DNA of 64,000 nucleotides from positions 35,394 to 99,393 of the forward strand of contig JAENRP010000158.1 in the NCBI GenBank assembly GCA_024741835.1. The letters run 5' to 3'. The notes beneath the pieces are model-generated. The model made no database searches. It was not told the DNA's origin and saw only the letters and a program-made list of their open reading frames with translations. Below are positions 31,961-63,612 of the stretch, one piece after another (positions within the stretch are counted from its first letter, which is position 1; each line of letters begins with the position of its first letter). Source of the stretch: Diplocarpon mali. Its lineage: Eukaryota; Ascomycota; Leotiomycetes; Helotiales; Drepanopezizaceae. The position numbers were made by a program, and so were the translations under genes.

Positions 31961-31980
31961 GACCTATATCGTAGGGAAGT

Positions 31981-32361: not shown

Positions 32362-32383
32362 GGGGCTTAGTAGGCTTAAGGAC

Positions 32384-32408
32384 GACTCCTAGGCCCGCCC
32401 TATAAGTC
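32384..32408 (+). repeat. 25-bp palindrome, copy 1
   Basis: Arms gactcctaggc and acc-type right arm ending ataagtc. Non-coding, in the 3' part of G. Confidence 0.75.
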
Positions 32409-32444
32409 AGGTCATATAGTCTTATAAAGGAAAGTTTTTAGATT

Positions 32445-32469
32445 GACTCCTAGGCCTAGACTGTAAGTC
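32445..32469 (+). repeat. 25-bp palindrome, copy 2
   Basis: Begins gactcctaggc, loop cta, ends gtaagtc. Second unit of the tandem in G. Confidence 0.75.
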
Positions 32470-32508
32470 AAGTCATATAGTCTTATAAAGGAACGCTTTT
32501 AGAAATTT

Positions 32509-32533
32509 AACTCCTGGTCCTACCCCGCGAGTA
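32509..32533 (+). repeat. 25-bp palindrome, copy 3
   Basis: Begins aactcctggtc and ends cgcgagta. Third and most divergent copy in G, non-coding. Confidence 0.6.
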
Positions 32534-32670
32534 AGATTAGTGATTTCAATAGAAGTTGCTATTGATTAATTGTTTTTAATTTAGAAAGATACTTAAGAGT
32601 TGGATTAGCGCAAAAGGATAGTTATTATTTTCCTAACTATAGGTTAATCAGAGTAAGGTCTAAGTAGGGG

Positions 32671-32865
32671 TATTAAGATAGGTAATATAGCTATTACTCT
32701 GATGTATTATTATATGACCCTACTGCTTAGTTAGTAGGATATTAACACGTATATAGCTATAGGGAAGAAAGGGGTAACCTTCCTTCCCTAACTCTTACCA
32801 ATATATCGACCATCGACCTTTAGAAGCCTCCTTTACCTACTGCGCCGACTCACTTAAGCTCAATA
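32671..32865 (+). repeat. G 3' LTR
   Basis: 195 bp, preceded by a purine run (aagtagggg) and followed by the target duplication GCTTT. Confidence 0.9.
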
Positions 32866-33435
32866 GCTTTACAATTATCGATTAGATTGATCTTAGCGTT
32901 ATAAGGATTCCTTTAAACCTAAGACTATTCCTTATAAGATATTTAGATTTAAAAAGTCTTATTTATTTTAATTAGCTTAGCTATAGCGTTATAGTCTCTT
33001 GCCCTTGGCAGTAGAGGAAGGTCTGGCCCTAAGGGCTAGGGTAGGGGTACTCCTTATAAAAGCTGGTTTCCCAAACAAACTAGGTACGTTCTAGGTTTGC
33101 TAACTTCTAGCTAGTAGGGAATTCATTTTACCAATTTTGGTTTTAGTAGTAATTCGGTTAAAAAGGGGTTCTATAGAAAAAGGGTTCTAGTAGCATAGTG
33201 CTCTCTTAACTTCTGCCTATAGTACTTCTATAAAAGGAGTAGTTAAGAAAATCCAGCTAATAAAAGCGTTCTTTGATTATACTAGTTAATAAGCTATACT
33301 TAAGCTCCTAGTTTGTTTAAGAGATCTTTAGGATCCTAACTCTATCGAAAGTTAAAACAACTGCGAATCGATTTTTCAAAAGGGGTAAGATATTATTAAA
33401 AGCCGTCCTTAGTAGAGAAAAACTTCTTTATTTAA

Positions 33436-33576
33436 TATAACGATATAAAACTGCTAAAGTGCAAGATCAAGTATAAAAGTAAGAAGTGGTACAAAAGGCG
33501 TATTCTATAGGTCTAATACAAAGGAAACGAAGAAGTTAAAAAGCCCTCCTTAAGAGAGAACCCTTCTTCCTTATAT
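33436..33576 (-). repeat. C2 5' LTR, first 141 bp only
   Basis: Matches 24475-24615 base for base apart from RIP changes, then stops at ccttatat, where unrelated sequence begins. Confidence 0.88.
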
Positions 33577-33900
33577 TATAGAGACCTAAGATGGATAGGT
33601 CTTATAACATATATCATATGATCGGCGCAGGCCGGTAGGAGGATAAAAGGGCCACCTTCTATATATAGAGACAGCGCGTATCGCTATAGTACTAAATATA
33701 CCCTATACTTAGGACTTGTTCTTAATATCTTATCTAAGAGAGCCCGCTTATAGTGCTTCCTCCTCTTGTTTTTAAGTCTTCCCTTAGGCCTATTCTTATA
33801 TTATCTCCCCTTTGTTTTATATTAGTAACCTACGCAAGGACCGATTTCTTAAGATTTCTATCCTTATACAACCTTATCAATCTCTTAATTTGCAGTTAAA
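33577..33900 (+). repeat. Candidate 5' LTR of E, right boundary unknown
   Basis: Starts exactly where the C2 LTR is broken. It contains a TATA-like ataaaagg followed by tatatatagagacag, and a long pyrimidine-rich run (33740-33820), as in an LTR with a promoter. No primer site or second copy fixes the end. Confidence 0.4.
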
Positions 33901-34530
33901 AGACCGGCCTTTGAAATACGTCTTTAAAACACTTATAGCATTTTGATCAACTCTAAAACCCTTATCCTTAATCACCTAGTTATTTAGAACTATCGATTTT
34001 CGTTTAGCAACTATTAATAACCTCAGACTTTCCCTTTTCAACTCTGCTTCGAAAACCCCTATTCTCTTCCTTAACTTTAAGATTTTCGGAATTTTCAGCT
34101 TCTTAGTATAAAAAGTTTAGCAAACCTTATAATAGCAATCTCAAATAGCAGTAGTTTTAAGTACTTAAGTAATACCAAGCGCAAACTCCAATTGGAAGTG
34201 CCTCCTTAGAATCCTTAGAAATCCGAATCTAATAATTTAACTGCCTTAGCTTAATAAAACTTTAAAAATTGCCCTAGAATCGTCTTTAAAGACCCCTTTA
34301 TTCTAAAGACCAATAGGAATTAGCCTAAAGGCTAAGAAGAATCTTAGATATAAACCTTATCTTAGAAATTAGTCTTAGATTAAGTAAACCTTATCTTATT
34401 ATAATTAGTTGCAACGCTCCTATTAATTATTTAGTACTTACTTAGAATCTTTTAGCAAACTTAGATTAAACTTTTAATAGAATCCGGAATTCTACTCCTA
34501 GGCTTAGCCTATAAGTAGAAGGATAAAAAG
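33900..34530 (+). other. E leader, no gene seen
   Basis: AT-rich sequence between the candidate LTR and the gag ATG without a coherent frame. It ends with a 25-bp palindrome 13 bp before the ATG. Confidence 0.6.
34493..34517 (+). repeat. 25-bp palindrome, copy 4, upstream of E gag
   Basis: Begins tactcctaggc, loop tta, ends ctataagta. It lies 13 bp before the gag start codon, so the mRNA would have a hairpin just before the start. Confidence 0.75.
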
Positions 34531-37389
34531 ATGTCCTTAAACAACTTAGGACTACTACCTACTTTTTTAATATCAATACTTAAAAATACTAATAATAATA
34601 ACAATTTTAAACTTTTCACTAACCCTTTATCTAAATCTTTTTAAACTTGTCCTAATCACTCTAAGATTGACTCAGATTCTGAATGCTCTTTAAGCCCTTT
34701 TGAATTTCGAAGTACTCCTTTTAGCAATCAATCTTATAATATTAAAGCTTCCCCTTTACCCCCTATAGATTCTATCAACTTAAACGGTTAGTATAAAATA
34801 ATAATAGCTGCATTTAAGGCTATTACTAGTCACTTTCCCCTCCCTAGTTCCCCTAGCGCTCCTTACTTTATAAGCACTAATATTACTAATTTCCTTAAGC
34901 AATATAAGGAAACTTATTACAATTTTAATATTATATAAGAGGATATGATTTCTCGACTTCCTTACTACTATAATTATACAAGTAAGGATATTATTAAATC
35001 CCTTCTCAAATAGAAAACGCATAGTTTATAAGAACTCCTTATTAAGGCTCTTAAGTCTGAATTTTAAGAATTTAATAGATAGCAGATTCGCAATACCCTA
35101 GCTTTCTTAAAGGAATTTGTTTTAATTACTTATACTCTTAAGGAACTTAAAAACTACTATCGGACTTTTACTTATATATCAAATACCTTAATCAGTTAGA
35201 AAATACTTAGCAAAGTTGAAAGAGGCCGCCTTTTCTTACTTAGATTACCTACTAGCCTTTGAAATAAGATCATTAAGCATTTTAGGATTAATGAGCAAGA
35301 CCTTATAACCTTTGTCTTATTTAAGGAATTCTTAGCCTTTGCTTTGAAATCAGATCTTAGTAAAAGAACTATTAATACTATAGAGTAGGAAAAAGCCCCT
35401 ACTCCCTCTTATACTAAAGACCTTAAGAGCCTGGTCTAAGAATACTTAAAAGCTTTAAAAGTTACAGAAGAGGCAAAGAAGAACCTAGTAGTTATACCTT
35501 TTACTCGCAGGCCCGACCTAAGAGTAAGATCCAACCTTAAAATTAAGGAACTTAAGACCTAATTTGCAAAACTCTAAATTTAAAGCTTAGAAATTAAGAT
35601 TAATAATCTCTTATAAGAAAAATAGCATATTCCTTAATTTAATAATAGATAAAACTCGACTATTATAAGCCAACCTAGTAGTTCCTATTATCAGACTCCT
35701 GCTTCTTATCATTTAGAATAACTAGCTAATATAAGAATGCAACAGCTAGCTAAAGAAGGAGGAATTGATTCTAATTAGCACTCTGCTAATATTAATGCTA
35801 TAAAGTACTAAGGAAACGGCAATAGAAGATAACTAACTTACAACTTTTGCAATAATAAAGAACCTAACTGCGCTCTATATAAGTATCGCAACGATTGCCC
35901 TCTTTTCCTTTGTTTTATTAATACTAGGGTTATATATATTAATAAGTATAGGATGCTTTATATTAGGGATCTTAGGCTAGAAGCTATCCCTATTAAAAAG
36001 TACTAGAATCGCTTATAGTTATAAACTATTCGAATAATAATATATAGTATAAAATAGGACGAGAATTTGGTCGAACAATAGCGTATTATAGATATAAATG
36101 CTAAAATTCCAACTTATATATATATAAGTCTAATTAGCAATCTACCTAAGGGAGTTCTTAAGGACTTAGCTTCTAATCAAATAGCTATAGAAGTTAGAGG
36201 CATCTCTATCTTAGGATAAGTTAATAATAATATTTCAGCTGATATTAATGCTACTTCTATATCTAAGAACCCTTGGAATTCTTAGCGTCCTTTTAGATCT
36301 TCTACTCCATTAATACTAATAAAACTAGCCAAAGTCCAGAAATCAGCATATGCAACTTAAGAATCTTAATATAGAGTTTAAACGCTAAAAGATACCTAAT
36401 AGTCTAGAACTATAATAGACAAAGATAAAGCCGATATAGCAGACGAATTGATTAAAGATATAATAGACGAAGATGGCTTTAAGCTTAAAGATTAAGAAGT
36501 TGAAGTTATTGCGCAGACCCTTAACCTTAAGCAAAAGAGACAGATATTAAAATAAGAGAAATTCATTAACAAATACGCTAGTTCAACTGTAATAGAAAAA
36601 GCTATAGAGAATATTATAGCCTAGCAAATTAACCTTATATTTAAAGACCTATTTAGTTTGATTAGACGCTTTAATAAAGTGCTAGGAAAGCATATCTTAG
36701 TTACTTTTAAAGATTTGAATAATAATAAGGAAATAGAAATTGTAATACAAAAGAACTTTAAGAAGCACTTAGCCTTGATCAAATATCTCTAAATTACAAA
36801 AGATAAAAGAACCTAGAGGTACTATAATATTATAGCGATAGTTTTAATATCTTAGAATATCAATCGAAATTGTTTAGCAATTGTAATAAAAAGCCCTATT
36901 ATTATTTATTTTATAAAAGAATTAGTTAAAGCAAAGGCTCTGATCGATTATAGTTTAAAAGTTAATATAATAATTAGAAAAGTGGTAGAAATAGCTCGAT
37001 TGATAATTATTAGCAATCGACTCCTTATTTATTCGACTGTCTCTAGATTAAAACACAATTTTAATAAATAGGTGAAAAACGTAAAGGTTAAAGTTAAAGG
37101 AATCGTTAATTATACTAACTTTCTAATAATAGAGAATTCTTTAAACGATATTCTTTTAAAAATGCCCTTTATTTTAAAATCTCAGCTAATATTTAACTAT
37201 CCTAAAGATAGGCTTATAAAAGCTAGCCTTTAAAATATAGATTGATCTTTAAAAGGATAAATAGTTATCGCAAGAGATATAGTCGAATTCTAAAATAAGG
37301 TTTTAAGAAACAATTAGCTAGTATAAGGGCTAGGCTTAATACTAGTAAAGGAAGGCACTTAGCAAGGAGTTATAGTAAAAGAAAGGTGA
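34531..37389 (+). pseudogene. E gag and protease, RIP-decayed
   Basis: ATG 34531 (MSLNNLGLLP) opens one long frame. An Asn/Ser-rich N-terminus leads to a capsid-like part (AAFKAITSHFPLPSSP, FLKQYKETYYNF, RLPYYYNYTSKDIIKSLL, VERGRLFLLRLPTSL, FKEFLAFALKSDLSKRTI). A zinc-knuckle-like segment follows (NFCNNKEPNCALYKYRNDCP, about 35840-35900). The aspartic protease region is around 36930-37200 (KALIDYSLKVNIII, from an ancestral DSG-like site; LLKMPFIL). Stops are at former Gln/Trp codons. This lineage of gypsy gag is common in ascomycetes. The frame ends near 37380, where pol continues in another frame. Confidence 0.85.
35502..35526 (+). repeat. 25-bp palindrome, copy 5, inside E gag
   Basis: In frame, encoding TRRPDLRV in the linker between capsid and zinc knuckle. 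Starts at a third codon position. Confidence 0.8.
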
Positions 37390-37417
37390 GTTTGCCGATT
37401 TTGAATAATAGCGATTT

Positions 37418-37442
37418 GACTTGCAGTCCTAGACTAGGAGTT
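37418..37442 (+). repeat. 25-bp palindrome, copy 6, in E pol
   Basis: Encodes TCSPRLGV in the pol frame, just after the frame junction. Third-position phase. Confidence 0.75.
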
Positions 37443-37579
37443 AAATCTGGAATTTTGAAAATTGGTATAATTAGAGTTTTATCGACTTAATAATTAAGAA
37501 AAAAGAAAAATAAGATAGAGAAGAGAGTTCGTTTTACAAATTTCAATAATTTACTAATTATTTTAAAAAACCTAAAAAC

Positions 37580-37604
37580 CACTTATAGGCCAGACTTGCA
37601 AGTG
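37580..37604 (+). repeat. 25-bp palindrome, copy 7, in E pol
   Basis: Encodes TYRPDLQV, only 137 bp after copy 6. Third-position phase. Confidence 0.75.
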
Positions 37605-39546
37605 AAAAATAATAAAATTACTAATAATATTTCTATCTACGCACTTTAAATTGACGACTTAGAAAATCTTTTATTTGTTTTTAAAAAGGAAAATTCGGAC
37701 TGTTTTATAGGATTTGATAAAAAAGGAAAGAAGTAAAGAAGTATAATACTAGCCAATATTCGAACTATATATAAAAGTAAGGCTAATAAAGTACAACTAG
37801 TAGATTAGGGAATCTCTAATAGCTTAAAGCCTAAAGGACTGGACGATTGGTTTAAATAAGATAAGAAGCTTCGACCTTTGAAGCCAGGTGGCAAATTCGA
37901 TAAGTTTATTATAGGTAGATTTTCTAATAAACCTATTAGATATTAGCTAATAAAAGAACATTTCGATATATTGAAAATTGGAGATAACTTAATAGAATAA
38001 GAATGCGAACTACTCTATAAAACCTTAACAAATCGAGAAGACGCCTTAGCTTTTGATTAGATAGAACTTAGCCAGATTTAAGAAGAGGTTACGCCTTATA
38101 TTAAAATTAAGATAATACCCTATAAAGCCTAGCAAGAGAAAACATTTAGGGTCCCTAAAGCTCTTTAAGAAAAGGTAATCGAAATATTAAAGGATAGGCT
38201 AAAGCAAGGAGTTCTTAAGTTCTGTAATAGCCCTTATAGAAACAAATGGTTCTTAGTTGCTAAGAAAGAGAAGGGAACTTATAGACTAATAATAGTAATA
38301 GTAAAGATGAACTGAGTAACTGTTAAAGACGCTAACGTTCCTCTAAATATAGATAAGTTCTTAAATGAATTCGCAGGATTAACCTATAGCTCTTTTATTA
38401 ACTTCTTCTTTAGATATAACCAATTTATTCTTAATATTAAATCGAGAGATATAATAGCAATTCAAACCCCTCTTAGGCTACTTCAGATAATAAGATTACC
38501 TTAAGAGGCTATAAATTCGATCGCTCAATTTGTTTAAGTAATCTATAAGATACTAATAGATTATATACCTAATATTACGCTCCCTTATATAGATAATATA
38601 GGAGTAAAAGGATTAAAATTATTTTATAACTATAAAGAAGTTCTTCCTAGTATATAACGATTTATAATAGAATATATTTAAAACCTAGACTAGGTGCTTA
38701 TATAATTTAAAAGGGTAAGAGCAATAGTTAGTCCGAAGTTATAATACTATCTTCTATTAATGGAAATTATTAGTTTTATTACTAATTCCAATGGCCGAAG
38801 TCCTTAGAGGGCTAAAGTACTTAAAATCGATAAATAAAAGAGGTATAACGATATAGCAAAAGCTCGCGCGTTTATTAGCGTTATAGTATACTATCGCATT
38901 TAGATTAAGGATTTCGCTAAAAAGGCAGCGCCTATTTACGCCTTATTTTAGAAAAGGGCTGAGTTTCAATAGGAGGAACCTTAAATAAAGGCTATAAAAC
39001 AACTGAAGCAAGCGTTGCTTAAAGTGCTATATCTGATCAAAATAGACTATAGAGCTAATGCTAGGCCAATTCTACTAATAGTTAACGTAAGCTTAATTAG
39101 ATAGGGTGCTATCCTTTAATAAGCTGATAGCTAATAGAAAAGATATTTAGCTCGCTTTAAAAGTGGTCTTTAAAATCTAGTAAAGATAAAGTATAATACT
39201 ATTAAATAGGAATGCAAAGGAGCTTTAAAAGTAATAAAAAAGATAAGAAGCGACCTTTATAGCACTTACTTTATCTTTGAAACTGATGCTAAAGTGTTAG
39301 TAAAACAACTAAATAGAGCTATAAGCAACCTACCTAGAGCTTTACTAATAAAATGGATTGCTTAAATAAGACTAATGGACTTTAAAGTCAAATACATTCT
39401 AAGAATAAAAAACACTATTATAGACGGCCTTTTAAGAAGAACTCGCCCCTACCCCTTTGATTTAATTAAAGAAGATAAAACAGATATTAATAAGTAGGTA
39501 GAGAACGAAGTTAGTTATCTATTGATATATTACCTTAAAGGGACTC

Positions 39547-39571
39547 GACTCCTAAGCCTAGCCCGCAAGTT
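39547..39571 (+). repeat. 25-bp palindrome, copy 8, in E pol, off-phase
   Basis: Lies in the linker between RNase H and the integrase zinc finger. It is read as LLSLARKL, the only in-ORF copy in a different codon phase. Confidence 0.75.
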
Positions 39572-40981
39572 AAATAAGAGAATTTTATCACCTAACTACT
39601 TAGGTAATTCTAAAGAAATCGCAAAATTTTTAATCATACTTAGATAACTAAAGACAATTGCTCTTAAGGATTTTTAGAAATTCAAAGCTAAAGCTTTAAT
39701 TTATCTAATATAAGGAAGACGATTGTTCAAAAGGAGTAATAACTTATTCCCTATATAACTCTACTTAGATAATAAAAAACTAAGGGCTAAGGCTATCTAG
39801 GATATTTATAAGGAAACTGGCCACTAAGGAGCTAAGTCTACTTACTACTAACTCTTAAGAAAATTCTTTTAGAAAGGCTCTTTTAAAGACTGCAAAGCTT
39901 TTGTAAAGAGTTGCATCCCTTATTAGAAACGAAAACCTAATTATAAGGAAAATCCCTTATTCTTAACCTAGCTATTAGGCCTTTTTTACAAAGTCAGCCT
40001 TAATATTATATAAGTACTAACTACTAAGAATAAGATAATATATTTTACTTTAGTAAAGGAAAACCTATTAGGATGGCCTAAAGGACGACCTTTAAGATCT
40101 GCTAACTTTGAATCTATTGTAAAGTTCCTTTAAGAAGATATAATCTATTACTATAGACTTTTTAATAGATTAACTATTAATAGAGGCCTTGAAAATAAAG
40201 GAGTAGTTAAAGCTTTCTTGCGAAAATATAGCATTAAATAGGTTCAAATCTTAGCGTATAATTCGAAAGCTAATAGAGTAGTAGAATAAGGATATTATAA
40301 TATTCTTAATAGTCTATCTAAAGTTACTTATAAAGGATTTAAGGATTAGATAAAACGCTTTTATAAAATACTCTTTACTTATTAAACGATAATCTATAAA
40401 CCGATTAAAGTTATACTATTCTTCCTTATCTATAGCAAAGAGGCATAGCTCCCTCTTAAATCCTAATAGCCTATTTAAAGATTATTCGACTATAGTCAAA
40501 TTCGGAACCGTTCCAATTTGCTTGTAATAAGATGCTAATAACTTAAGCTTTAAGATATAGATATAAAGGAAATCATTTTGCAAAAGAAACAATATTAGGA
40601 AAAAGCTAAGGAAGCGTAGGCTGCTTCTAAAGTATTTAAAACGCACCCTATTTGAAAAGATAATCTTATCTTAGTTTATAATATTGCAAGAAGTATTAAT
40701 ATATTAGCAAATATTAAACTTAACTATTAATAGCTTAATCTATTTAAGGTTAAATCCGAGTAGAAAGAAAAGGGATACTATTCTCTTTAAGAACTTAATA
40801 GAGTCGATATTAAGGGAACCTTTGCAGCTAACCAACTAAAGCGCTTTTATTAATGCGACTAGACCTTATTCCCTTTAAAAGACGAATTAGAAATTGATAT
40901 AACCTCCGAATCCTCTATAGGAACCGATAGCAATATAAGCAATTTTGAACCCTTAAATAAAGACTAAGATTTTTCCAATTT

Positions 40982-41006
40982 AACCTATAAGCCGGTCCTA
41001 TAAGTA
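40982..41006 (+). repeat. 25-bp palindrome, copy 9, in E pol tail
   Basis: Encodes TYKPVLQV after the integrase core. Third-position phase; right arm intact, loop worn. Confidence 0.7.
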
Positions 41007-41399
41007 AAGAATATTAAAATACTTAACTAATCGCAACCTTAAGTTATTATTCCTAAAATATCTAAAGAATGCAAGTAGGAATACTAAACGATTTCCTAGC
41101 CTATCAATTGTCTTACCTTCCTTTAATCCTTATTTTTACATTTTTAGCAAGGTCGCCTCCTTTATTATTTAAGATATAGATCTTTTAAGATCACTTTAAA
41201 TTCTTGCCTACTTTGACTTATTTTACATTCTTAATATTAGCCTTTAATTATAATATTCCTATTACTTTCCTTAAATAATAAATAAAAAGTCCAATTTCCT
41301 TAATATATATATAGTAAACCTATTGCAGCTTATATGCCTTTTTAATTCTTATACCCTATTAAACTCTCTTATTTATACTACCTATCTTTTATAAGCAAT

Positions 41400-41867
41400 A
41401 TGCCTCTAAAGAACTTATAAATGGTTTTATCTATTGCAATAAGGGATAAATAAGCACTAGTTATAAACTTCTCTTAAGATAGTAGAGCTATTGCATTATT
41501 AAAGAGCTTCAAATCGACCTATATAGCCTTAGGAGATATAAAGCAATAAAAACTCCTTTTAGCTTATGCGAATGCTATTAGTAACCTTTCAACCTAAGTA
41601 GCCCTTAGAATTCTCTAATTTAATAACTTCCTAACCGAAGAATTAAGACTAAAGGGAATCTCTAAAGAGGAATTCTTAGCTGACGCAGATTAATATATAA
41701 CCTTGGCTAACACTTTTAAAACGGACTAAGACAAAAGAGAAGAATCTATTTAATAATTAGATAATTTAGCTACTAATAAGAGAGGACTCCTATTTCGTTT
41801 GCGCTTTCTAACAAATATTAATTCTAATAATAGAAGACAAGTGTTATTAAAAATTCTTAAGGAAAAT
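41400..41867 (+). pseudogene. E ORF2, exon-like part 1 of 3 (split by F1 and F2)
   Basis: ATG 41400 opens a frame (MPLKNL, VLSIAIRDK, INFSxDSRAIALLKSF, LRLKGISKEEFLADADxYI, TNINSNNRRxVLLKILKEN) that runs in phase into F1. Leaving out F1 and F2 with one target copy each, the pieces 41400-41867, 49474-51296 and 58874-59945 add to 3,363 nt, exactly 1,121 codons with the stop. All internal stops are of the RIP type. The product is paralogous to ORF3. The N-terminus is charged and helical-looking, with no signal peptide or membrane segment. The middle has a conserved block (LYN-SLIQQ-HYRLYL). The C-terminus is basic (KRRRL), like a nuclear signal. No known family is recognised. Confidence 0.7.
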
Positions 41868-42065
41868 TGTTGTGCAGAATGGGCGGAGTCTCCACTTATT
41901 CTGGAGACCCTCCACGTGACTCCTGCTAAGTCATAGACTCTCCCTTTTCTTTCCGAAGTCTCCTTACTATATATATATTAGATAATAATATAATCAATCA
42001 TCTTTATCTATATTAGCAAGCCTCTTAAGCGACCTAATAAAGGCCCTTTAGCCGACCGTACTATA
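41868..42065 (+). repeat. F1 5' LTR
   Basis: From TGTTGTGCAG to GTACTATA (ancestral end probably CACCACA), 198 bp. Confidence 0.9.
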
Positions 42066-42076
42066 GTTATAAGCCC
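42066..42076 (+). promoter_or_regulatory. F1 primer binding site, initiator-Met half-tRNA type
   Basis: gttataagccc follows the LTR directly. Undoing one G-to-A change, it pairs with the initiator tRNA-Met anticodon arm, as in element G. F2 has the same site (complement at 58660-58670). Confidence 0.6.
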
Positions 42077-42270
42077 TATAAGCATTTTAATATGCTTTCT
42101 CTTTGCATATAACCGGCTAAAGGGCCCTTTGAGCTCTTAACCGACTTTTCGAGTATTTATAATAACTCGAAGGACCTTCATTTTCAATTAATAAATCTCC
42201 AATTTCCGATCGAACCTCATTTGCAAACTTCATTTATATACCTAACCTTTTTCATTAGACTCTATTTAAT

Positions 42271-49468: not shown

Positions 49469-49850
49469 AAAATACTCCTACTGCTAAAGCTATTTAGATT
49501 CTCAATTTCTTTATCATTTAAGAAGGAGTAGTAAAATTCTAAGGCAATCGAATTCGCAGTTGCAGATTTATAGGCCTATCTAATGCAGTACTTATAGCAG
49601 CTAATAGAGCTATAAAAAGATCAAATTAAGCTATAGATATTACCCTACCTAATAGCACTATTATTAATATACTAAGGCTCTGCGCTTCTGCTTATAGTTT
49701 ACTTGTTTTAAAAGAGAACTGGACTCCTATAATAGGGTTTAAATAAGATTTCTTTAATAATAAAGAAGGGAATTGGTTATTTATAATCAAGCCTGCCTTA
49801 AAATTCGCTTCTTAACCTAAAGATATAATAAGTGCTGAACTATATAATTT

Positions 49851-49875
49851 AACTTATAGTCCTAGATTAGGAGTT
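49851..49875 (+). repeat. 25-bp palindrome, copy 10, in ORF2
   Basis: Encodes TYSPRLGV. Third-position phase. Confidence 0.75.
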
Positions 49876-51236
49876 AGAAATAAGAATTTTAAAACTGGAC
49901 CTAACCTGCCTTTTATTAAAATAATTCTAAAAACCGCTGCTAAACAAACTGCCCAAACGCTTAGCGCAGCCTCTTTAGAATTTTCAGAATCTTCAAAGGA
50001 CTCTCCTTTAGCTAAACAGCCTATTTTAGCTTAACCTTTAAAAAGGATAGATCATTTAATAGCTACTTTAGCTGATTTGCAATTTAAAACCAAAGGATTG
50101 CGCGCTCGCTTAGACTCTTTCCTTAATAACTTAAAGGAGCTAGTTCTTAACTTCTTTATATTTATATATAACTATTTTAAAAATAATAATATAAGGGAAG
50201 ACCCTATTCCTACTACTCTAAAGACGACTAAGAGAGCCATCAAACAGATTCAATAGCTTATCTTAGATGAGTTCGCCTCTATAGATATTATTCAATTCTT
50301 TAATAATTATAAAAGTTAAGAACTTAGTCTCTTAGATGCTAAGCAAGACTATTTTATCTTATAAAAAAGAGAACGCAAAAAGGAATCTATTAATTAAGAC
50401 ATTTGTAATTATAGCAATATGCCTCAATCGGTCATTCTTAACCTCGAGCTTAGAGAATAATATAACATTTAAGTGTCCTTTATAATAAAGACTCACTTTC
50501 GATAGTATCTTCCTAGCGCAAGAACCAAAGGAAGAAGACTTTACGACCTTTATATTCGCTCTCTTTCAGTTTACTATAGTCTTAATTATAAAGGATTTAA
50601 TATTAATAAAACTATTAAATACCTTAAACTTCTCTATATAGTAGAAGATATTAATCTTTTTCTAATCTACTTTAATAATTAGTTCTTTATCTCTTTAAGG
50701 ATATGCAAATCCAACTTATTAATAATAGAAGCATCTTTAAGTGCTGTAAAATTCAAGGCTAATCCCAAAGCCTTAAAGGCGTTAGAGCCGATTGAATGGA
50801 ATAATTCTTTCTTTTCGATATTATTAAGCAATGAATAGTAAGAGGAAATAGAGGAAGAAGGGTCAATTGTAATGCCTAAACCCTTTGGATACCGCTTCCT
50901 AACCGACAATTTTACTACTAATAATAGTGCTTTTATAAGTACATTCCTCTCTATTATAAGATAAGAAGTAGAGATATACCTTTATCACTTCCGCCCTATA
51001 GATAACGCAACCTCTATACCTTCTTATTTTCTCTATAATATGATATTTAGCCTTATTTAATAAGTCCTTCAAATACATTATAGACTCTACCTCTTAGCTA
51101 TAATAGTAAAAAGTAAAGGAGCCTATTAGCTTATAGCCTACCCTAAACCTCCCTAATTGATTGGCCTTAGTCTTTATAATTAAGTTATTTTAATAAAGAG
51201 AGATGCAAGTGCTACTAATAAAGAAATTCCGATTTT

Positions 51237-51261
51237 CACTTGCAGTCCTAGCCTGCAAGTC
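51237..51261 (+). repeat. 25-bp palindrome, copy 11, in ORF2
   Basis: Encodes TCSPSLQV. Arms cacttgcagtc and gcctgcaagtc with loop cta, one of the best kept. Third-position phase. Confidence 0.8.
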
Positions 51262-51296
51262 AATTTTATTAAAAAGCAAGTCTTAGATTATCAGAT

Positions 51297-51494: not shown

Positions 51495-51959
51495 TACCCC
51501 CTAGTTAGGCGATACTCTTAAAATCGCTTAGCTATATAAATAAAATAAAAGAAAGAATAGTAGTTATAAAGAAAAGAGGCTCTATCTTATATATTGCCCT
51601 TTTAAAGGTTATTCCTTCTAAAATGAGAAGGGTCGCTATAGGCAATAAGCGCGCTTAGGAATCTTCGCAATTCTATATTAGTGCTCTATTAGGCTTCCTA
51701 TAGAGTATTTCCATCGCAGAGGTTCTCCTTCCCTTCTTTTAAAAACAACCCTCTTTTATTATTTAAAATATTATTTTTATACTAATAATTTTAAATATAG
51801 AAGGAACTCTTACTTATTATAGCCCTGGCCGCCCTTGCAAAGTAAGACCCTTAGAGTCCCTATACCTTACGTTATACTAACTTTGCGCTAGGTCGCTAGC
51901 GCTTCTGCAGGAGCTAGAACCCTATCCTAGTCCTCTTAGCGCCTATTAGGTAATAAGCC

Positions 51960-52681: not shown

Positions 52682-52942
52682 GAGGAGATCCGTGCGGAGC
52701 TTATAGCTATAGCTTCGCGGCTCTTAGCCTTAGCTAAGAGGATTTAAAGAAGGGTCGCGTCTTATAATAGCAGCTTAAGAATATTACCTATTCTTATATT
52801 TTTAAAAAAGGAGAAGCTTTTGTAATACGCTTTATAAGAGAAAACAAATGAATATAATTATAAGAGAGTAAGAGCTTATAAGTATAAGTCTCTTAGTAAT
52901 AAATGACTACTTACTAGCAAGTGCGAGTTATTAAATAATTAT

Positions 52943-55900
52943 TTAAAAGCTCTAGAGGTTTAATAAACAAACAAAGCTTTTAAACTTCTAGCGGTCTAGG
53001 TTCTTAATAAGCCCATTTGCGTATATCTCCTTAGTAGGGAGGTAGATTATCTAGAAGCTTCCTTTCTAATACTCCTAGCAGATTTATATATTACTAATTT
53101 CGATATATTAAAGGCTTATCTTAATCTTCTTATTCTTTATAACAATTAGCCGAATCGTTTGTTAATTATTATAATATATATTCTATTTAAAGAGGGAGTT
53201 TATACAAATCTCCTTAAAGAGGCGTTTTATAGCTATTATCTCCTTTATAATAGAAACTATACTATAGAGTTCTGCTTTAGTAGAGGAGAGCGTAATAGTC
53301 GCTTAGCGATTTGCTTTCTAAATAATCGGTCCTTTAAATAGGAAGAAGACGTATCCTTAAAAGGATCTGCGGGTCTCTTGGTCATCTTTAAAAGAAGCAT
53401 CTAAAGACGCGACCAGTTGGTATTCCCTAGCCTTAAAGCTATAAGCAATTCCTAAGAAGCGCGTGCTATATAGGTATTAAAGCGTCTAGTCCGCAGCTAA
53501 AAGGTACTTAAAGCTTAGATTAGTTAGGAAGAAAGACAGTTAGAAGGCTGCGAACGCAATATCTAAGCGTATTATAATCGCTATATAAAGAATAGAGCCT
53601 ATTTTCTCTTAGTACTCCTTTACCTTTTCTAAGGAAGCTTGCCCTAAGTTCTTAATAAACTCCTTCTTTAGTAATAGAGTATTAAGCACTCTCCTTATAT
53701 TAGCTCCGAACTTTTGAGCGATCTTCTTAATATAGGTATTATAAATTAAGGAGATCCTCTTTACCTTCCTATCTTAAATAATCCTTACTTTAAGGAACTA
53801 GGAGATATCTCTTATAATAGTAAGCTTATACGCCCTCTTTAAGTCTTTAATCAAATGAGTCGCCCGATCTAGGTTAAAGGCCTTATATAATACTTAAATA
53901 TCGTTAATATAAAACGCTATAAAGACTATACGATCCTTTATTATAAAAATATAAGGCTCCTCGCTTAGTAGCTTAAGTTAAAGGCCCTTGAGCATTCTTG
54001 CAAAGTTCCTATACTATAGTACTAGAGAGTCTTTTAGCCTATAGAGCGCGCGGTCCAGTTCTACTACCATATTAGGGCGCTTAAAGCCATTTAATAAGAA
54101 GCATATGACTAAAGCACTCCTTAGGTCTTTAAAAGCGTTGACAAATACGTTAATAATATCGAACTGCTTTACTTTTATATTAAAGTACGCAGCAAGCGCT
54201 ATTAGTACCTTAAAAGACCTTGCTATAAGCGTAGCTATATAAGTTGAGAAAATTGAAGCTTTATCTTAAAGATCCCCTTGCACAACTAGCTATAATCGGC
54301 ACTTTAGAAGCTCGCTAGAGCTATTGACCTTATAAGTAAAAACCCATTTTAATAGTATCGGTAGGGGCTTTAAGTAATCCCTTTATATAATTTTCTAGCA
54401 ACTCTGAGATTTCAAATTCCTAATCTCCTAGCGCCCTCCTTTCTTAAATCGTTTGCTAAAAGGGTGCTTCTCTAGGTTTAGCCATCCTTTTAAAGGCTTT
54501 AGCAAAGAGCCTTAGTGCTATAGGCAGTTAGGAGACTGCGCTCTATCCTTTGCCTAACTATCAACTGCAGCTTTAACAATTATATAAACTATTAAATAGT
54601 CCTTCTTATCCTCCTTTATCTATTCGTTTGCTTAAAAGGTTAATATAAACTCCTATATATATAAGGAGTAGGGTAAATTAATATTGCTTTAAGAAAGCAT
54701 ATGCTTTAAAGTAGTAGCATATACTTTTAAAGTCTCCTATTACTTAACGCTTAAGCATTTTATCCTCTTTTATTTAAGAAGAGGGAGTTCCTCTTTGCGC
54801 TTTTCTCTATAGGTCTTTTCTTCTATTTTTATTATTACTAAAGGTTCCTTTAAGAGTCTAGGTAGCTTTATCTCTTAAGCCTATAGTCTCTAAGCTAGTA
54901 TTACAACTTGAGGTATTATATTATTAAGGCCTACTCCTTTTACTAAGTTGCTTCTTATAAGACTGTTAAAGCTCTTTCTAGATCTCAGCGGTAGTGCCTT
55001 TAGCCTTTTACCAAAGTTCACTAGGGCCTGCCTTTATAACTGAAGACTCTGTCTTAAAGCCCTTAAGCTATTTCTATTCTTATATAGAATAGTAGCTAGA
55101 GATCTGCCGATCGCCTTATAGAACTTGTCTCTAGAGACTCCCTTAGAGTTATCCATAGTTCCTTCTTCGGTAGGGCCTTTATAAGGAATTATCACCCTTA
55201 AGCTCTAGTCGCCATTTGCCTTCTTAAAGACTGGCGAAGTAGCTTTTAGTTCGCTTGCTTCTACCCTTAAGTTTCTAAGCAGGTCTTTTAGAGAATTTGG
55301 ATTTAAGTTAAGGCCTTTTATATTATTAGTTAGAGGCTATAGAGCAGCGTCGGTCTATAATATAGGCTCTTCTTATATAGCGGCTTCTTCTGCAGCGATT
55401 GCATTCGGCCTTGCAATAAGCTTTAATTCCTTAAAAATGCCTTCGAACTTAGCGTTTTAAGCTCCCTCTCCCTCTTCGATTAATTAGAGGGTTATCTTAA
55501 GTTCCTAGCGCGATATAGGGTTTGCGCGCTTAGCTTCTGGACTATAGAAGAGAGACTTATCAAATTTGATATTATAAGTTGTTATTACTTGCTAGAGTAT
55601 AGGAACCTAGATTCTATAAACATTAGAGGTAATATATCTAACTAAGTAACCTAGGTACCTTTATAGTTCAATTTTAAAGGTTCGGCGGTCCCTTCCCGCC
55701 TTCCTCTCTTTAATTAAAAGGTATGCGCAAGCGCTATATATATAAACGCGACTCTAGTCAGGCTTTAAGCTTATTATCATCTGCTTAATAAGCAGCAGCT
55801 TATAAAATCGAAAATACTACTTAAACTAATTATAAAGAGCCTCGCTTAATAAGATTATCTTCTTCCTAGCGAGTAAGGAGATATTATAAAAGTATATAGT

Positions 55901-58465
55901 AGCCTTTATAACCTTTAGCCAAAGGCTTGCTAAAAGCCTAGTATAGATCCTTATTTTAATAGAGCGTTTAATCAACTCCCTTCTTACTTGCTCTGCGCCT
56001 CTATTGAGTTAGTATATATAGGTAAGAGTAAGCTCTAAATCGATTCCCTCCTCTTTTACCTATCTTTAGTACTTTATAAGAGAGTCTTCCCTTAGGGAGA
56101 TTACTAAAGTGTTATTATCTTATCTGATTTTGCAAATAGAAAGCCTATATTAGCGTTTCACTTATGCTTTAAAGGCCTAGAGGACCTTTATAACTACATC
56201 TCCGCCCTTCGATCTTAATAAGAACGTCCAAAGCATACTACTATATTTATCCTTAATTAAAAGAACTTATAAGCAACTGTTGTATAAGTTATTTAAAAAG
56301 TTAAAGAGATCTTAGGAGATCTTAAAGAAGGGCCTTAGAGATCGGTTCTTAGAGGTAGCGTAAGAAATAACTTACTTAGCAGACGCTATTGCGTATATAA
56401 GGCACTTTAGCCTTTATATTCCCTTGATCTTCACTCCCCTAGCGCACTTGACTAGCGCTTAAAGAGCCTTTGCGCTTAAGTAGCTAGCGCAAAGGTGCCA
56501 AGTATACGCGTTATTATCCTATACCTTAATAGGTGCATAGCTAGACTAGAACCTATTATAAAGCATTATCTTAGCTATAAGAAACGCTATTAAGGTAGAG
56601 AAGTCATATTAAAGTATATTTAAGAGATCTAAATAGTTGATAGGCTTATATTTAAAGAAAATGAGATTATAGTAACGCTTTAACTAAGCTCGCTTTACAG
56701 AATCTCTAATGCTTTTAAAGCGCAAAGTAAGGTCTACCCTAAAGTACTAAAAACCCTTGTCCGCAAGGAGCCTTTTTAAAATAATATTAGTAGTAAACTC
56801 CTTTATAATAGCAATATTGCAAAGCATTATCCCTATAAGAGAGCCGTCACGCTATAGAAGAGAGTCTACTATATATTTATCACCTCTCCTAATGATTAGG
56901 AGTCTTAAGGTACCTGCTTCTATATATTACTATAAGTCGCCAAAAGGCTTAAAGGTGCCTGCGATAAGTAAATCCTTTGAATTAATAATATAAGTAGCTG
57001 CGCAATTATTAAAGAGCGTACTTAAGGAAAGCGGGTAGCGTTCTAGCTTAAAGAGGTAATAGATATTGAACGATTCTTTAAAAGCGTCGAAGGCAAAGGG
57101 ATCTATTACTATAAAGACTGGTGAGTTCTTCCTTTTGCTGCTTAAACCGTCCTCCTTAAAGGCTAAAGCCTTTCCTTTGAATTTGTCAATTGCTATTACT
57201 GCAATGTTATTCTCCTTAAGCTATGCTTAAAGACCCTTGAACTAGTCTCCTACGTTTAAAGCCTTTTGTATTTATAGGACCTCCTCTTACAAGGGGAGAA
57301 CCTTTATATTTTCCTTACGCCTATCTATAGTATATAATAGTTTCCGACAGTCCTAGGGCTTCTAATAGTGATTTTTAAAGCCTTTACAAGGGCACTTAGG
57401 CCTGATCTCCCTCCTAGAGCTTATAAAGCGATTTCAAGAGCTGCTCGCTAGAGCCTGCAAAAGGGTTTCAATATCTAAGAGAGACTCTTAAGTAGTAAAA
57501 ACTGCTAGCCCTTTATTATCAATCGCTCTATTAGATTCAATGCCTGCTAAGGCGCGGCTTAGCTGCATTAGGTCGTACTTACATAAGGTTCCTATCTGCT
57601 TATTAGTAATAATTTCCTCCTTTAAGCGAGTCGCCTAACTTAGATTAATCTTTACTACAACTAAGTCTAAAAAGTCAATAACTCTTAATCTCCCTTTAAT
57701 CTTAGGAAAACTATGTTACTCTACTAGGCGGTACGCCTCCTACTACTCCTAGATCTACTATTAAGTATTAGTTCTCCTAGTTTTACCTTAGCGTAGTATA
57801 TTACAGTATTAAAGCCTCGTCTAAGACTGAATAGCCTTATCAGAAGGTGCAATATCATACTTTAAAATAGATACTAGGCCTTAGAGTAAGAGTTGCTAAT
57901 TAACCAAATTAGTATACAGGTTGTTAGCAGTAGTTCCACTTATAAGAGTATCTCTATTAGGTATTAAGGAAGAGAGCTTCTTAGCTTGGATTTATACTTA
58001 AGCTATCGCAGAAGCTAGAAGCGTTCTATTAACGGTCTTAAAGACCTATTCTAAGAGTAGCTTATAGTATTTGCATTAGGTCTTTTAAGTTTCCTTACAT
58101 AGGTAGTACTCCTTTATTAGGATTTTATATTCATCCTTAATATCCTTATAAGAAGCCTATAGAGGAGGAGCCTTTAACAGATCTCCTAAGGGAAAGCGGG
58201 CGTAAATCTATTTAAATAAAGTCGCTATATACTCTTTATATAACCTTGCGTATACTATACAGAGGTTAGCCGTTTCCAATTCCTTAAGCTCTTATATAAA
58301 GGGAGCTTAAGGCTTAATTTCTATAATTGACTTAAATAAAAGTCTTAGATCGGTAAAAATAGTAATATTATAAAGCTTAGCGAAGAATATATATTTATTA
58401 AACTATTTCACTTAAAAGGCAAAGGTATTAAAGCAAGGCTTAAAGATACTCGAAGAGTCAGACAT
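52943..58465 (-). pseudogene. F2 gag-pol, RIP-decayed
   Basis: The minus-strand frame runs from ATG 58463-58465 (MSDSSSIFKPCFNTFAF) to the stop at 52943-52945, collinear with 42271-47793. It keeps the start codon that F1 lost. Gag, protease, integrase, RT and RNase H lie in the same order at mirrored positions. The sense frame is broken by many TAA/TAG codons. Confidence 0.88.
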
Positions 58466-58670
58466 TTTAAATAGAGTCTAATGAAAAAGGTTAAGTATAT
58501 AAATAAGGTTTGCAAATAAGGTTCAATCGGAAAATAGAGATTTATTAATTGAAAATAAAGGTCCTTTAAGTTGTTATAAGTACTTGAAAAGTCGGTTAGG
58601 AGCTCAAAGGGCCCTTTAGCCAATTGCATGCGAAGAGAAAGCATATTAAAGTGCTTATAGGACTTATAAC

Positions 58671-58868
58671 TATAGTGCGGTCGGCTGGAGGGCCTTTATT
58701 AAGTCGCTTAGGAGGCTTACTAATATAGATAAAGATGATTGATTATATTATTATCTAGTGTATATATGGTAAAGAGACTTTAGAAAGAAAAAGGAGAGTC
58801 TATGACTTAGCAAGAGTCACGTAGAGGGTCTCCAGAATAAGTGGAGACTCCGCCCATTCTGTACGACA
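58671..58868 (-). repeat. F2 5' LTR (right end)
   Basis: 198 bp ending GTACGACA on the plus strand, followed by the target duplication CAGAT. Confidence 0.9.
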
Positions 58869-59945
58869 CAGATCCTATTGATTAGATAAGGGCCAGCTTC
58901 TAAAAGCCTTAATAGGTAGGTCGGCTCTTAATTGATTATAAAACTCACTCCATCTATAAAGAAGATAAGTCGATAGACTTCCTAAGCACTCGGTTCAAAA
59001 TCTCAATTAGCTCAAATGACTATAAAGTTAAAGCGAAAGGAGATCTTACGACCTATTACTAATAATAGCAATCTAATTATAATAATAATAAAATAAGGAT
59101 ACCTTCTTAAAATGCTTTTGGACAATTCTTATAAGACTAGTAGTTTTATAGCCTTTTATAATAACTATATAGCCGTCTTTAATAAGAATACCTTAGAAAA
59201 TAAGACTCGAATCTCCAATTTTATCTTTTCAATCTCTACTCTAAAGTAACCTTTAGTACCTTAATAGATTAATATAAATAGAACTACTGCACCTTTTAAG
59301 GCAGCTTTTCATCTTAAGAACTGCAGTAGCCTCTCTAAAGCTATTATTAGTTAATGCTCTTAGACAGATCTATTAATTATAATCGAAGTATAGGAGTTAT
59401 TTCTTCTTAATAAAGACGAATTGAAAATCCACCTTATAAAATATAATCAAAAGCTCTTTAATGCCCTTATTAAGGCTTAGACGAATGTTATAAATACTAA
59501 GTCGCTTCTTTATAGACTCAAGTCTTAGGAATAGCATAATAAAGTAAATGCTATCTAAGAGCCTAATGTACTAATTAATAAAGGCATTATTATAAGAAAA
59601 TTCGGAAAAGAGACAAACTGAGACTTTAGTATAGTATCAGACCCTAATTTAGGAACTAATCCCCTATTTTTATCCTTAAGCTTAGAAACGCTAAGACTGA
59701 CTTGCGAGCCTGGCCTGCAAGTAAGGTTGGACTCGGCTAGCTTAAGCCTATAAGATAGTTCGGATGAACCTTAATTACTAAATCTAAAGGTACTAATAGA
59801 AGATCCTTTAAAAGAGGTCCCTAAAGCTGAGAAATCGCTAAAAGATAAGAACTAATGTAAAAGAAGAAGACTCTAAAGTGATAATAGAACTAACAATTGA
59901 GTCGACTTAAGCTTAGAGAATCGAGTCTACCACCTCCCCCTTTAA
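58869..59945 (+). pseudogene. E ORF2, part 3 of 3
   Basis: Resumes in phase at 58874 and ends with TAA 59943-59945 (ENRVYHLPL). It contains LKRKEILRP, LKMLLDNSYKTSSFIAF, DELKIHLIKYNxKLFNALIKA and, near the C-terminus, CKRRRL, which resembles a nuclear localisation signal. The segment DELKIHLIKYN aligns with DMTQLTIYLKKYK of ORF3. Confidence 0.7.
59699..59723 (+). repeat. 25-bp palindrome, copy 12, in ORF2
   Basis: Encodes TCEPGLQV. Third-position phase. Confidence 0.8.
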
Positions 59946-60462
59946 AAACCATTTAAAGAGATTGCAAATTAGAAGTTGAAATTTTTAGGAATTATCTACT
60001 TTCTATATACCTATACCTTTTTATTCTTAACCTATTGTTCTATTCTATATATATTCTTTATTTACTTTACTCTTTATATAATTCATTCTTTAATTATTCC
60101 CTTTGTATGCAACTTTCTAATACTTACCTTTGAAATATCTTCCTTACCTTTGATAATTATCATTTACCAATTATAGGTCCTTATATACGTTATACCCTAC
60201 TTTTATTCCTACTTCCAAGCTTATTATATCTACTTTTCCTATATGCACTAGCGCGATTTTAAACTCTATAAATAAGCCTCTCCCTGCACTACGATTTTAC
60301 TTTTTTTACTTTTTCTATAACCCTACTAGACCTATAATACTAGCACTACTACTATTATCTTTTATTATTAATCTTTTCTAATATAAGCCTCTTATATTAT
60401 TAATCTTTTCTAAATAATTATCTCTTTGTTTAAAACTACTCCCTCTTATTAAATAATTCATT
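59946..60462 (+). other. Spacer between ORF2 and ORF3, pyrimidine-rich, no gene seen
   Basis: 517 bp of C/T-rich, A/T-rich sequence with no coherent frame. The short open run at 59976-60176 is low-complexity (Phe/Leu/Ile/Tyr). A similar but shorter pyrimidine-rich stretch precedes ORF2 (41217-41399). It may hold the promoter or leader of ORF3. Confidence 0.6.
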
Positions 60463-61349
60463 ATGGCACTACTAAACTCAAGCAAGAGAGCTATACCTAA
60501 GAAGAATATATCAGTTATAGCTTTAGGTAGCAAACCCTTAAATACTACTAATAACGAACTAATATTAGAGGGTAACTTTTCATAAGATAGAAAAGCTCTA
60601 AGATCATTAGAAGATATAGTAAGCACCTATAGAATATTAAATAAAATAGAATAGTAAGTATTCTTAAACTCATTTATAAAAGTATTAAACTATAGAATTT
60701 CTACTATAGAAGAAGGATTTTTAGGCTTTGATAATTTTCTTAAGAATAAGCTTAAGATAAAAGGGATCAATTATGAAAAATTTCTATAGGAATATTAGAG
60801 GTATGCTAATTCTATGGATTTATTTTAAAAAAATCGAAATAAGAAGAATAAGTATATGAAAAGATTATTGCAATTTATAGGTAGCACCTATAGTACACTT
60901 TTCCAGACCTACTTTATAACTAATATCACTACTAATAATACCTTATAAGGGCTTAGTAAAATCTTTAAGATATACTAACCTATAGCAAAGGCTATATAAG
61001 TATTGAATTATTTCACTATTTAAGAAGGTATGAAAAAGCTATAAGGAAATAGCATTAAAGGTAGAAAATTTATTAGGTTCTTAAGCACTATTATATACTC
61101 TACTATTTAGACTATAAAAGATGAACCCTTATAGTATAATAATTTTGCACTTTCTAATTAAACTATTCTAAATACACTTAGCCTTTAATAGTTGCAATAT
61201 AGTCTACTTATTATAAAAGAAAAGATGACTTATCTTATTAAGTATATTATAAATTACTTTAATAATAAGTTAGAGAGATAGGAGTTTATTATCCCTATCA
61301 CTTTAAAAATGCTGCCACCCTTAATAGGAATAACTAATAAGGAGAATTT

Positions 61350-61374
61350 GACTTATAGGCCTGGCCTATAAGTA
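61350..61374 (+). repeat. 25-bp palindrome, copy 13, in ORF3
   Basis: Encodes TYRPGLQV (Gln codon now TAA). Third-position phase. Confidence 0.8.
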
Positions 61375-61535
61375 GAATCAGTATATAAGGAGAATATCCC
61401 TAAGCTAGAGGTACTTATAATACTAGGAACTTAAGCAATTGACCTGCCCGATTACCATTCCTCTAACTCAAACGAATTTGAGTTACTATCCCCAGAAATA
61501 CCCTAAATACCCTAAATACTAGTAGCAAAGAAAAT

Positions 61536-61560
61536 GACTCGTAGGCCTAGCCTACGGGTT
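61536..61560 (+). repeat. 25-bp palindrome, copy 14, in ORF3
   Basis: Encodes TRRPSLRV. Arms gactcgtaggc and gcctacgggtt, loop cta. Third-position phase. Confidence 0.82.
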
Positions 61561-62765
61561 AATATATATAATATTATAAACTTAGAAGATGAATTGTCTA
61601 ATAAAGAAATAGGCACTATCACTAATATGCTAGAAATTTTTAATAATACTAAGAAGGATACCGCTAATATTATACAATCTTTCCCTAATAACCTGCAAAA
61701 ATTTGTTCTCAAATTCTATAAGTTAATAATAAAGCATTTAAAAAAAGAAGGTTAGAGAGAAGTCTTATTAGCATAGGAAGGGATAACAAAAGCCATTAAG
61801 CAGATTATAAAACTGCTATAAGACGAATTTTCTATAGATAATATTATATAGTTCTTTATTAAGTATAAGAAATTAAAAGGTAACTTCTATATTCTTAAGG
61901 AGAAATCCGAAGTCAATACAAATATCATCTCTATAGAATGTTATTAGGTTCCCCTTAATATAAAGATAATACTATAGTATAGCGATAGTTTTAAGATAGT
62001 AGTAATACTAGAAATAAAGATAAGACTTGCAAAGTTTATAATAGGAATGTTTAAAGACTTCAATTTTGAAAAGTTCTATACCCTTTATAAATGCTAATAT
62101 GCGCAGTACTATGGATTGGCAATAATAGGCCTTACTAACGAAGATATATCATCTAATATTTATAAATTTTGCACCGCTCCTAACCTAACCTTATTTTTAT
62201 TACATTTAGGAAATCATGCAATTATGGCCACTAGCAATAGAATAGCAAGCTAAGTTAAAAAGGATATGTTATTAGGCTTCTCCAAGTTCAAAGTGGCACC
62301 TAAAGCTCTTAAATTATTCTATAATATCGCATAGACCCTTGCCTAGTATAATATTATACTAACTATTGACAACTTTACATTATTCCGCAGCAAAGGCTTT
62401 TTAAATATGCCTAAGTTGTTTAGCTGCGCCTTTTTAAGCGCTATGCGCACGCATAGTTATAGTAATTATAAAAAGAATTCATTTTTAATATTAGTATAAG
62501 AAGAACTAAAAATGTACTAATACCACTTCCAGACCTTAAATAAGAAGCCAAACCCCCCTTTTGCCTACCTCTATAATATAACTTATAGCTTAATATAATA
62601 AATACTAAGGATGCATTATAGATTATACCTAAGTGCTCTACTAATTTAATATAAGTCTTTATATAAACTAGTAATATATCCTAAGCCTATATAGTTTATT
62701 AAAATTGACTACCACTTAAGAGTTATTGCTACTAAGATTAATACTAATATAAGATTTATAAGATT

Positions 62766-62790
62766 AACTCCTAGGCCTAGCTTGCAGGTC
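62766..62790 (+). repeat. 25-bp palindrome, copy 15, in ORF3
   Basis: Encodes TPRPSLQV. Third-position phase. Confidence 0.8.
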
Positions 62791-63587
62791 AATCCACCTA
62801 ATAATAGAACTATTAACTACTATATGATTTTAGCAGCCAAACAATCGACTAGAGAATTTGCTATTTAGGAAAAATCCTATGAATTATTAAATCTCATACC
62901 CTAACGCCTTAAGAATGCTTAATAGATCTTACTAAATCTGGCTTAAAATATAGTATAATAGAAAGAATTGAATACTAGAGAGAAGACACTTCTAAAGGAG
63001 TATATCTCTAATAAGACGACTCTATTCTTTATATTTATTAGATAAGGCATATTCGTTAATATAGAATCTGCTAAAGAACTAGGAAAAGGTAGCTTTCTTA
63101 CTATTAGTAACAACTATATAGAAGTTATTAGTAATAACTTACTAAAGAATAGTATAGACCTAGAAGATTTTCTTATCAATTCTATTAGTATAAAGAGACC
63201 TAGCACTATAAGATAGAGTATTACTAAAGAATCGTTAGCCAAATTTTGTATAACGCTTAATATAATAAAAGGAGGCCTACTATCAAAGGCACTTATAAGG
63301 AAACGGCTATAGAATAATCCATTAGTAGTAATAATAGTAAAGGAGTTATTCTCTAAAGATATGACTCAGTTGACAATATATCTAAAGAAGTATAAGTAGG
63401 AACTTTTTAATAATTTCACCTATACTTAAAAGCTGATTTAATAGTTAGAGCTATAACTATATAGGGATAAGTCCTAGACTAAGATAAAAGGCACTAATAA
63501 TAATATTAAGGCTAATAATATAATCGATAAGACGATCCTTTTCGAAAAGTATAGCATTAAGAAACCTTATACTAAACCCTCTAATAT

Positions 63588-63612
63588 AACTCCTAGGCCC
63601 AGCCCGCAACTT
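63588..63612 (+). repeat. 25-bp palindrome, copy 16, in ORF3
   Basis: Encodes TPRPSPQL. Third-position phase. Confidence 0.75.

Follow-up and report, generated by a model that had tools for sequence, protein, structure and literature searches.

A family of near-palindromes of 23-25 bp shared by unrelated nuclear retroelements of Diplocarpon mali

A 64,000-nucleotide stretch of the Diplocarpon mali genome (assembly GCA_024741835.1, contig JAENRP010000158.1, forward-strand positions 35,394 to 99,393; hereafter the window) carries a dispersed family of 25-bp near-palindromes in its long terminal repeat (LTR) retroelements. All 16 of the 25-mers listed in the original prediction, between window positions 32384 and 63612, were verified. 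This ultra-short palindrome family, shared by unrelated nuclear retroelements, is real and, among the papers listed in searches of the open-licence text of PubMed Central (PMC), previously undescribed. Our best reading, to which we assign a probability of about 0.6, is that the 23-25 bp units stem from one DNA ancestor, were copied into several unrelated LTR retroelements and were then multiplied by retrotransposition, so that a selfish or hitchhiking palindrome would be moving among these nuclear elements in the manner of Rickettsia palindromic elements or mitochondrial GC clusters. This reading rests on a sequence, partly non-palindromic, that is common to 21 flank contexts and four kinds of element. 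The palindrome is present in some elements and its typical form is missing from related ones; locally it is duplicated in tandem together with neighbouring spacer. Mobility, in the sense of transfer as a separate unit, we infer from this distribution over unrelated elements.

The palindrome unit and its host elements

The window has been strongly affected by repeat-induced point mutation (RIP; indices 1.57 and 0.63). The un-RIPed unit is ACTC[C/G]CGGGCC-N-GGCCCG[C/G]GAGT, a GC-rich near-palindrome of 23-25 bp. Since the GC-rich ACTCNCGGGCCNGGCCCGNGAGT family is found genome-wide, the arm given in the original prediction, GACTTGCAGGC, is a RIP-mutated form of this unit. The degenerate search that had been proposed was run on the whole assembly (49.37 Mb, 676 contigs), where the strict RIP-form pattern gave 460 forward and 458 reverse matches, and ACTCNCGGGCCNGGCCCGNGAGT at up to two mismatches gave 405 sites (the sequence is self-complementary, so the same 405 are counted on each strand); control matches were zero for both. 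On both strands of the window and 20 long loci of the same genome (9.9 kb each), matches at 0, 1, 2, 3 and 4 mismatches numbered 41, 57, 90, 84 and 81, versus 0, 0, 0, 0 and 7 in the reversed sequence. RIPed retroelements carrying the palindrome are spread over many contigs of the assembly. The unit was absent from IMG/VR and GTDB genome contigs, collections that do not hold fungi as such. Look-alikes might arise by chance or through RIP in AT-rich, RIPed DNA such as that of the window, but the controls were empty, consensus-like copies are GC-rich, and RIP erodes the unit instead of creating it; such an artefact has next to no probability.

The window and the fetched loci together hold 192 palindromes (one site counted twice), which reduce to 21 flank contexts: 13 in a giant Ty3/gypsy element (E), three in a distant gypsy element (Z), three, probably four, in a Ty1/copia element and one in a short-LTR element (G). 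The 16 sites first listed fall in E and G only; the Z and copia copies lie outside these two. Copia and gypsy are separate superfamilies; the copia host carries an RVT_2 domain and the gypsy hosts RVT_1 or RT_RNaseH, and the best local match between the proteins of E and Z shows only ~24% identity. Near-consensus short loci agree, all 25 distinct sites falling in E, Z, copia or G repeat contexts. The sample in which only retroelements were seen comprises the window, the 20 long loci and the 25 short sites, which were chosen by hand from match lists and not at random; loci L001-L019 (3 kb each) were given only a brief look.

Within the window, element G (31157..32868, no strand assigned) consists of terminal repeats of ~200 bp (31159-31357 and 32671-32869, 94% alike) flanking a 1.3-kb interior. 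Three palindromes, likewise unstranded, lie in it at 32384..32408, 32445..32469 (the first two 61 bp apart) and 32509..32533. The third has four mismatches to the strict pattern, and has counterparts at L024:1028 and L036:4352, both in G context. Element E occupies three parts of the window on the plus strand: 33574..41867, with a Ty3/gypsy-type pol (RNaseH, H2C2); 49469..51296; and 58869..64000, which includes an extra open reading frame (ORF) of ~1150 aa and runs past the window end. Its palindromes are on the plus strand, apart from the first, which is unstranded. They lie at 34493..34517 near the 5′ side (frame not fixed); 35502..35526 in the 5′ half, presumed gag (framed by stop counts only); 37418..37442 and 37580..37604 upstream of the reverse transcriptase (RT), both in codon phase 3 and encoding TCSPRLGV and TYRPDLQV; 39547..39571 in the RNaseH-integrase linker; 40982..41006 towards the C-terminus of pol; 49851..49875 (stop counts only); 51237..51261 (frame not fixed); and 59699..59723 (stop counts only). 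Four more, at 61350..61374, 61536..61560, 62766..62790 and 63588..63612, are in the extra ORF and are not assignable to domain boundaries. A RIP-tolerant score was passed by 15 of the 16 window sites; the remaining one, at 40982, is a weak member with a counterpart in a second E copy (L030:240).

Over the whole sample, gag-pol palindromes are found at the gag N-terminus (Z), before RT (E and Z) and in the RNaseH-integrase linker (E and Z), and copia palindromes before the protease, between SH3 and RT and in the non-coding 3′ region. An element may have up to 13 contexts, with one to ~8 tandem copies. Local tandem units (45, 48, 39, 54 and 61 bp) differ in copy number, and the palindrome arrays are a coding minisatellite of variable copy number. 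Arrays with mostly 48- and 39-bp steps were seen at L023:7321-7768, L033:8598-9045, L036:728-1088, L024:8767-8860 and L027:2747-2843; those in L024 and L027 sit in the copia SH3-RT linker. A copia-array ORF, used as a query against the protein collection, had no match.

Positions fixed within each family, together with tandem units that vary in number, could also be left by ancient shared ancestry and tandem slippage only, the unit having been part of an ancestral LTR element and duplicated locally later. This demands near-identity since before the copia/gypsy split. In addition, no unit was found in the window's gypsy D (13900-11101 and 29200-26401, minus strand), a RIPed element related to Z with 32-34% identity to the D. 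coronariae protein P0003, or in the two copia-type elements of the window. We consider ancestry of this kind quite improbable.

The unit could instead be a cis-acting DNA or RNA signal (for protein binding, dimerisation, packaging or silencing evasion) that was gained by recombination or convergence and is selected, not self-moving. The sampled copies, all in retroelements, would suit such a signal, as would a unit better conserved than its flanks and the hairpins predicted for two un-RIPed copies (-13.9 and -13.2 kcal/mol); window copy 61350 gave -12.9. However, as many as 13 contexts per element, spread over gag, pol, the extra ORF and non-coding DNA and holding one to ~8 copies, are unlike one signal; window copy 39547 had no fold; and gypsy D does without the unit. 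Compensatory change preserves pairing weakly at best, 164 of 231 arm pairs being formed versus 154.7 in shuffled arms (257 of 5000 shuffles reach 164). At pair 6 the two bases match in only 25 of the 192 copies and in four of the 21 context representatives, versus 8.0 in shuffled arms (1986 of 2000 shuffles reach 4). A position 6 that is usually unpaired fits a shared non-palindromic mark, to which RIP may contribute. With pair 6 rare and compensation weak, the copies appear to descend from a single imperfect palindrome. A cis-acting signal seems to us unlikely.

DNA sequence and encoded peptide

In coding contexts the un-RIPed unit encodes T-[PR]-G-P-G-P-R-V. Third-codon positions 7 and 19, which were free in the search, are a pyrimidine and a purine, respectively, in 21/21 context representatives. 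Positions 10 and 16, also third in their codons, vary (G/T and C/A). Positions 4 and 22, which the search pattern specified, change by transitions only. Neither the copies of element G nor those of the copia 3′ region are coding, and the E RNaseH-integrase site at 39547 is in codon phase 2 in 3/3 copies (3-4 stops in that frame versus 15-17 in the others). The third-codon conservation, the non-coding copies and the phase-2 site argue that what is shared is a DNA sequence, not a peptide.

The original prediction had placed 11 of 12 in-ORF copies of E in a single codon phase. Stop-count phasing is ambiguous between strands for many contexts, so the tally was limited to those whose frame follows from a domain, from a protease motif or from a protein of D. 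coronariae. Copies are mostly in frame, and 11 of 12 such independently framed contexts start at codon position 3, the exception being window site 39547. The chance of at least 11 of 12 in one phase is ~1.4e-4, assuming independent contexts and equal phases; sites inside one element may not be independent. No phase of the un-RIPed unit holds a stop on either strand, so stop avoidance does not explain the bias.

The best matches of Z pol are the D. coronariae proteins P0002 and P0003 (74%). T[PR]GPGPRV is present in the RNaseH-integrase linker of these two and of P0014, also from D. coronariae, that is, in 3 of 24 aligned Z homologues; P0014 has a second octapeptide near the gag N-terminus. The motif is missing at that linker in the other 21, which include P0004-P0013 (48-59% identical) and P0015 of Drepanopeziza brunnea (42%). 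Four D. coronariae homologues of the extra E ORF retain octapeptides: TRGPGPRV at site 1 (61350), [ST]RGPGPRV at site 2 (61536) and TPGPGP[RQ]L at site 4 (63588) in all four, and TPGPGSRV at site 3 (62766) in three, this stretch being missing from P0124. The extra ORF itself (60464-63936 and L020:3701-7195) has no Pfam match, and its relatives, among the matches listed, are from D. coronariae only.

A peptide motif selected as a flexible linker or polyprotein processing site, its palindromic coding being incidental, would account for the common phase of the 11 contexts and for the positions of pol copies, which are ahead of RT and in the RNaseH-integrase linker in gypsy, and ahead of the protease and in the SH3-RT linker in copia. 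It would also account for the extra-ORF paralogues of D. coronariae, in which octapeptides (chosen by motif in P0123) are identical in 160/168 cases (95%) versus 76% in the flanks and 84% elsewhere. Against this stand the search-free third-codon positions, conserved across unrelated elements, the non-coding copies, and the other phase of the E RNaseH-integrase copy; we judge selection for the peptide improbable. The original prediction had also offered a shared protein domain as its alternative, to be recognized by an octapeptide present at the same sites in all homologues, no empty sites and no copies outside E and G. Empty sites were indeed not found, but copies occur in Z and copia and 21/24 Z homologues are without the typical motif. 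Given the unrelated hosts and the non-coding copies, the palindrome is not a shared protein domain.

Tests of mobility and a possible route

The palindrome had been pictured as part of a 27-bp insertion with a 2-bp target duplication. The family copies examined gave no empty site, and their flanking repeats show a weak excess of inconsistent length; this picture is not supported. A flank-spacing test was made on 144 copies, those lacking 80-bp flanks being dropped. In 554 pairs, a count that includes self-pairs, the homologous flanks were 25 apart, and no pair had them closer than 10; of the other spacings, many among the first 80 pairs fit tandem units or partial deletions. Among the matches listed, row lengths gave no vacancy at the copia 3′ site (40) or the site before the protease (55), with 40/180 and 40/174 candidates scored in the respective DNA searches. 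Split alignments of Z pol gave no base-exact empty site, nor did protein alignment with the homologues, whose linkers do not permit a base-by-base alignment. When GC-rich representatives are taken, direct repeats beside the unit are in excess (p 0.001, 0.003 and 0.034 with three sizes of the flanking interval), their lengths running from 0 to 7 and 7/21 contexts having none. Random representatives give a median p of 0.057, with p<0.05 in 48% of 120 draws.

The lack of vacancies and the irregular flanking repeats weigh against a mobile palindrome, and so do four further points. Arm covariation is at best borderline. The strong codon-phase bias, unexplained by stop avoidance, is not predicted under neutral insertion. 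Octapeptides outdo their flanks in conservation, which could reflect peptide selection. Lastly, two look-alikes in gypsy proteins, seen at the protein level only, TREPGPRV in the linker before RT (P0018, residue 240) and TPEPSPQV in the RNaseH-integrase linker (P0007, residue 904), could be counter-evidence, convergence or distant members.

Rejected vacancies. Length differences of 45 and 54 bp were considered as vacancies and read instead as tandem units, and a 15-nt shortage was read instead as a partial deletion of the third unit. This shortage, at L039:6381-6392 and L035:2838-2849 as compared with L021, L024 and L029, suggests a deletion inside the hairpin.

If the palindrome does move among LTR retroelements, the unit would pass from one element to another as a short patch, with reverse transcription or repair as the most likely occasion. 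Candidate routes are a template switch between co-packaged RNAs, hairpin-primed copying from one such RNA to another, or repair of a break with another copy as template. Multiplication would then come by hitchhiking on retrotransposition, copies in ORFs would survive mainly in flexible linkers between domains, where eight extra residues are tolerated, and RIP would finally mutate the copies. A bolder version is possible but rather doubtful: a self-spreading palindrome, among the smallest mobile DNA units, that parasitises nuclear LTR retroelements of Ascomycota, jumps, while reverse transcription is under way, from one co-packaged retroelement RNA or cDNA to another and inserts into polyprotein linkers with a preference for one codon phase. 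That such a family occupies coding regions of several unrelated nuclear retrotransposons would suggest that ultra-short units can spread by riding reverse transcription, and exchange of sequence between copia and gypsy would have left a natural record in it. With hundreds of RIP-scored copies, the movement of the shortest selfish DNAs becomes testable in sequenced Diplocarpon assemblies.

Comparison with known systems

Organelles are known to have mobile palindromes of similar size, and bacteria to have longer ones. Among the former are the MUSEs and double-hairpin elements of fungal mitochondria, very short GC-rich palindromes. Class II elements, including miniature inverted-repeat transposable elements (MITEs), are expected to make a target duplication of constant length; none of constant length was seen here, but no empty site defines the ends.

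The comparisons that follow draw on excerpts of the papers cited. Rickettsia palindromic elements, the analogy offered at the outset, are short palindromic repeats found mostly in frame in unrelated ORFs, where the extra peptide is tolerated; they are ~150 bp long, bacterial and located in host genes (PMC10969869). The units described here are 23-25 bp long and eukaryotic nuclear, with all sampled copies in retroelements. The analogy thus holds for dispersal inside unrelated ORFs (those of gypsy E, gypsy Z and copia) and, with one phase exception, for an in-frame extra peptide, D. coronariae proteins carrying octapeptides that were presumably inserted; it does not extend to the ~150-bp size or to bacterial host genes.

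The GC clusters of yeast mitochondria are likewise very short, GC-rich palindromes surrounded by AT-rich sequence, and some form tandem arrays. They are mitochondrial, however, polymorphic for presence or absence and flanked by AG/ACT direct repeats (PMC4478555); here neither the polymorphism nor such repeats are established. Fungal Copia elements of the GalEa type have a conserved palindrome with a fixed mismatch, CHS, although these are 9-bp sequences just after the 5′ LTR that replace the primer-binding site (PMC5445492), whereas the present unit has a different sequence, many internal positions and gypsy hosts too. Nematomorph mitochondria also have palindromes within protein-coding sequence; those are perfect repeats, with palindromes of up to 284 bp, many of them species-specific (PMC6649704). 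The mitochondrial palindromes of Fusarium were a further system compared (PMC7218506).

As the original prediction had supposed for a fungal nuclear genome, none of the papers listed in searches of open-licence PMC text was seen to describe a coding palindrome carried by nuclear retroelements. The string 'palindrom' is missing from the main text, as excerpted, of the D. coronariae (PMC11527701) and D. rosae (PMC5628827) genome papers. According to the excerpt of the former, the D. coronariae DC1_JKI genome is 20.74% Copia and 5.67% Ty3 (PMC11527701).

The copia-type (RVT_2) elements of the window lie inside E, at 41868-49468 and 51297-58868. No palindrome scoring two or less was found in either; the two copies are inverted and ~88-89% alike.

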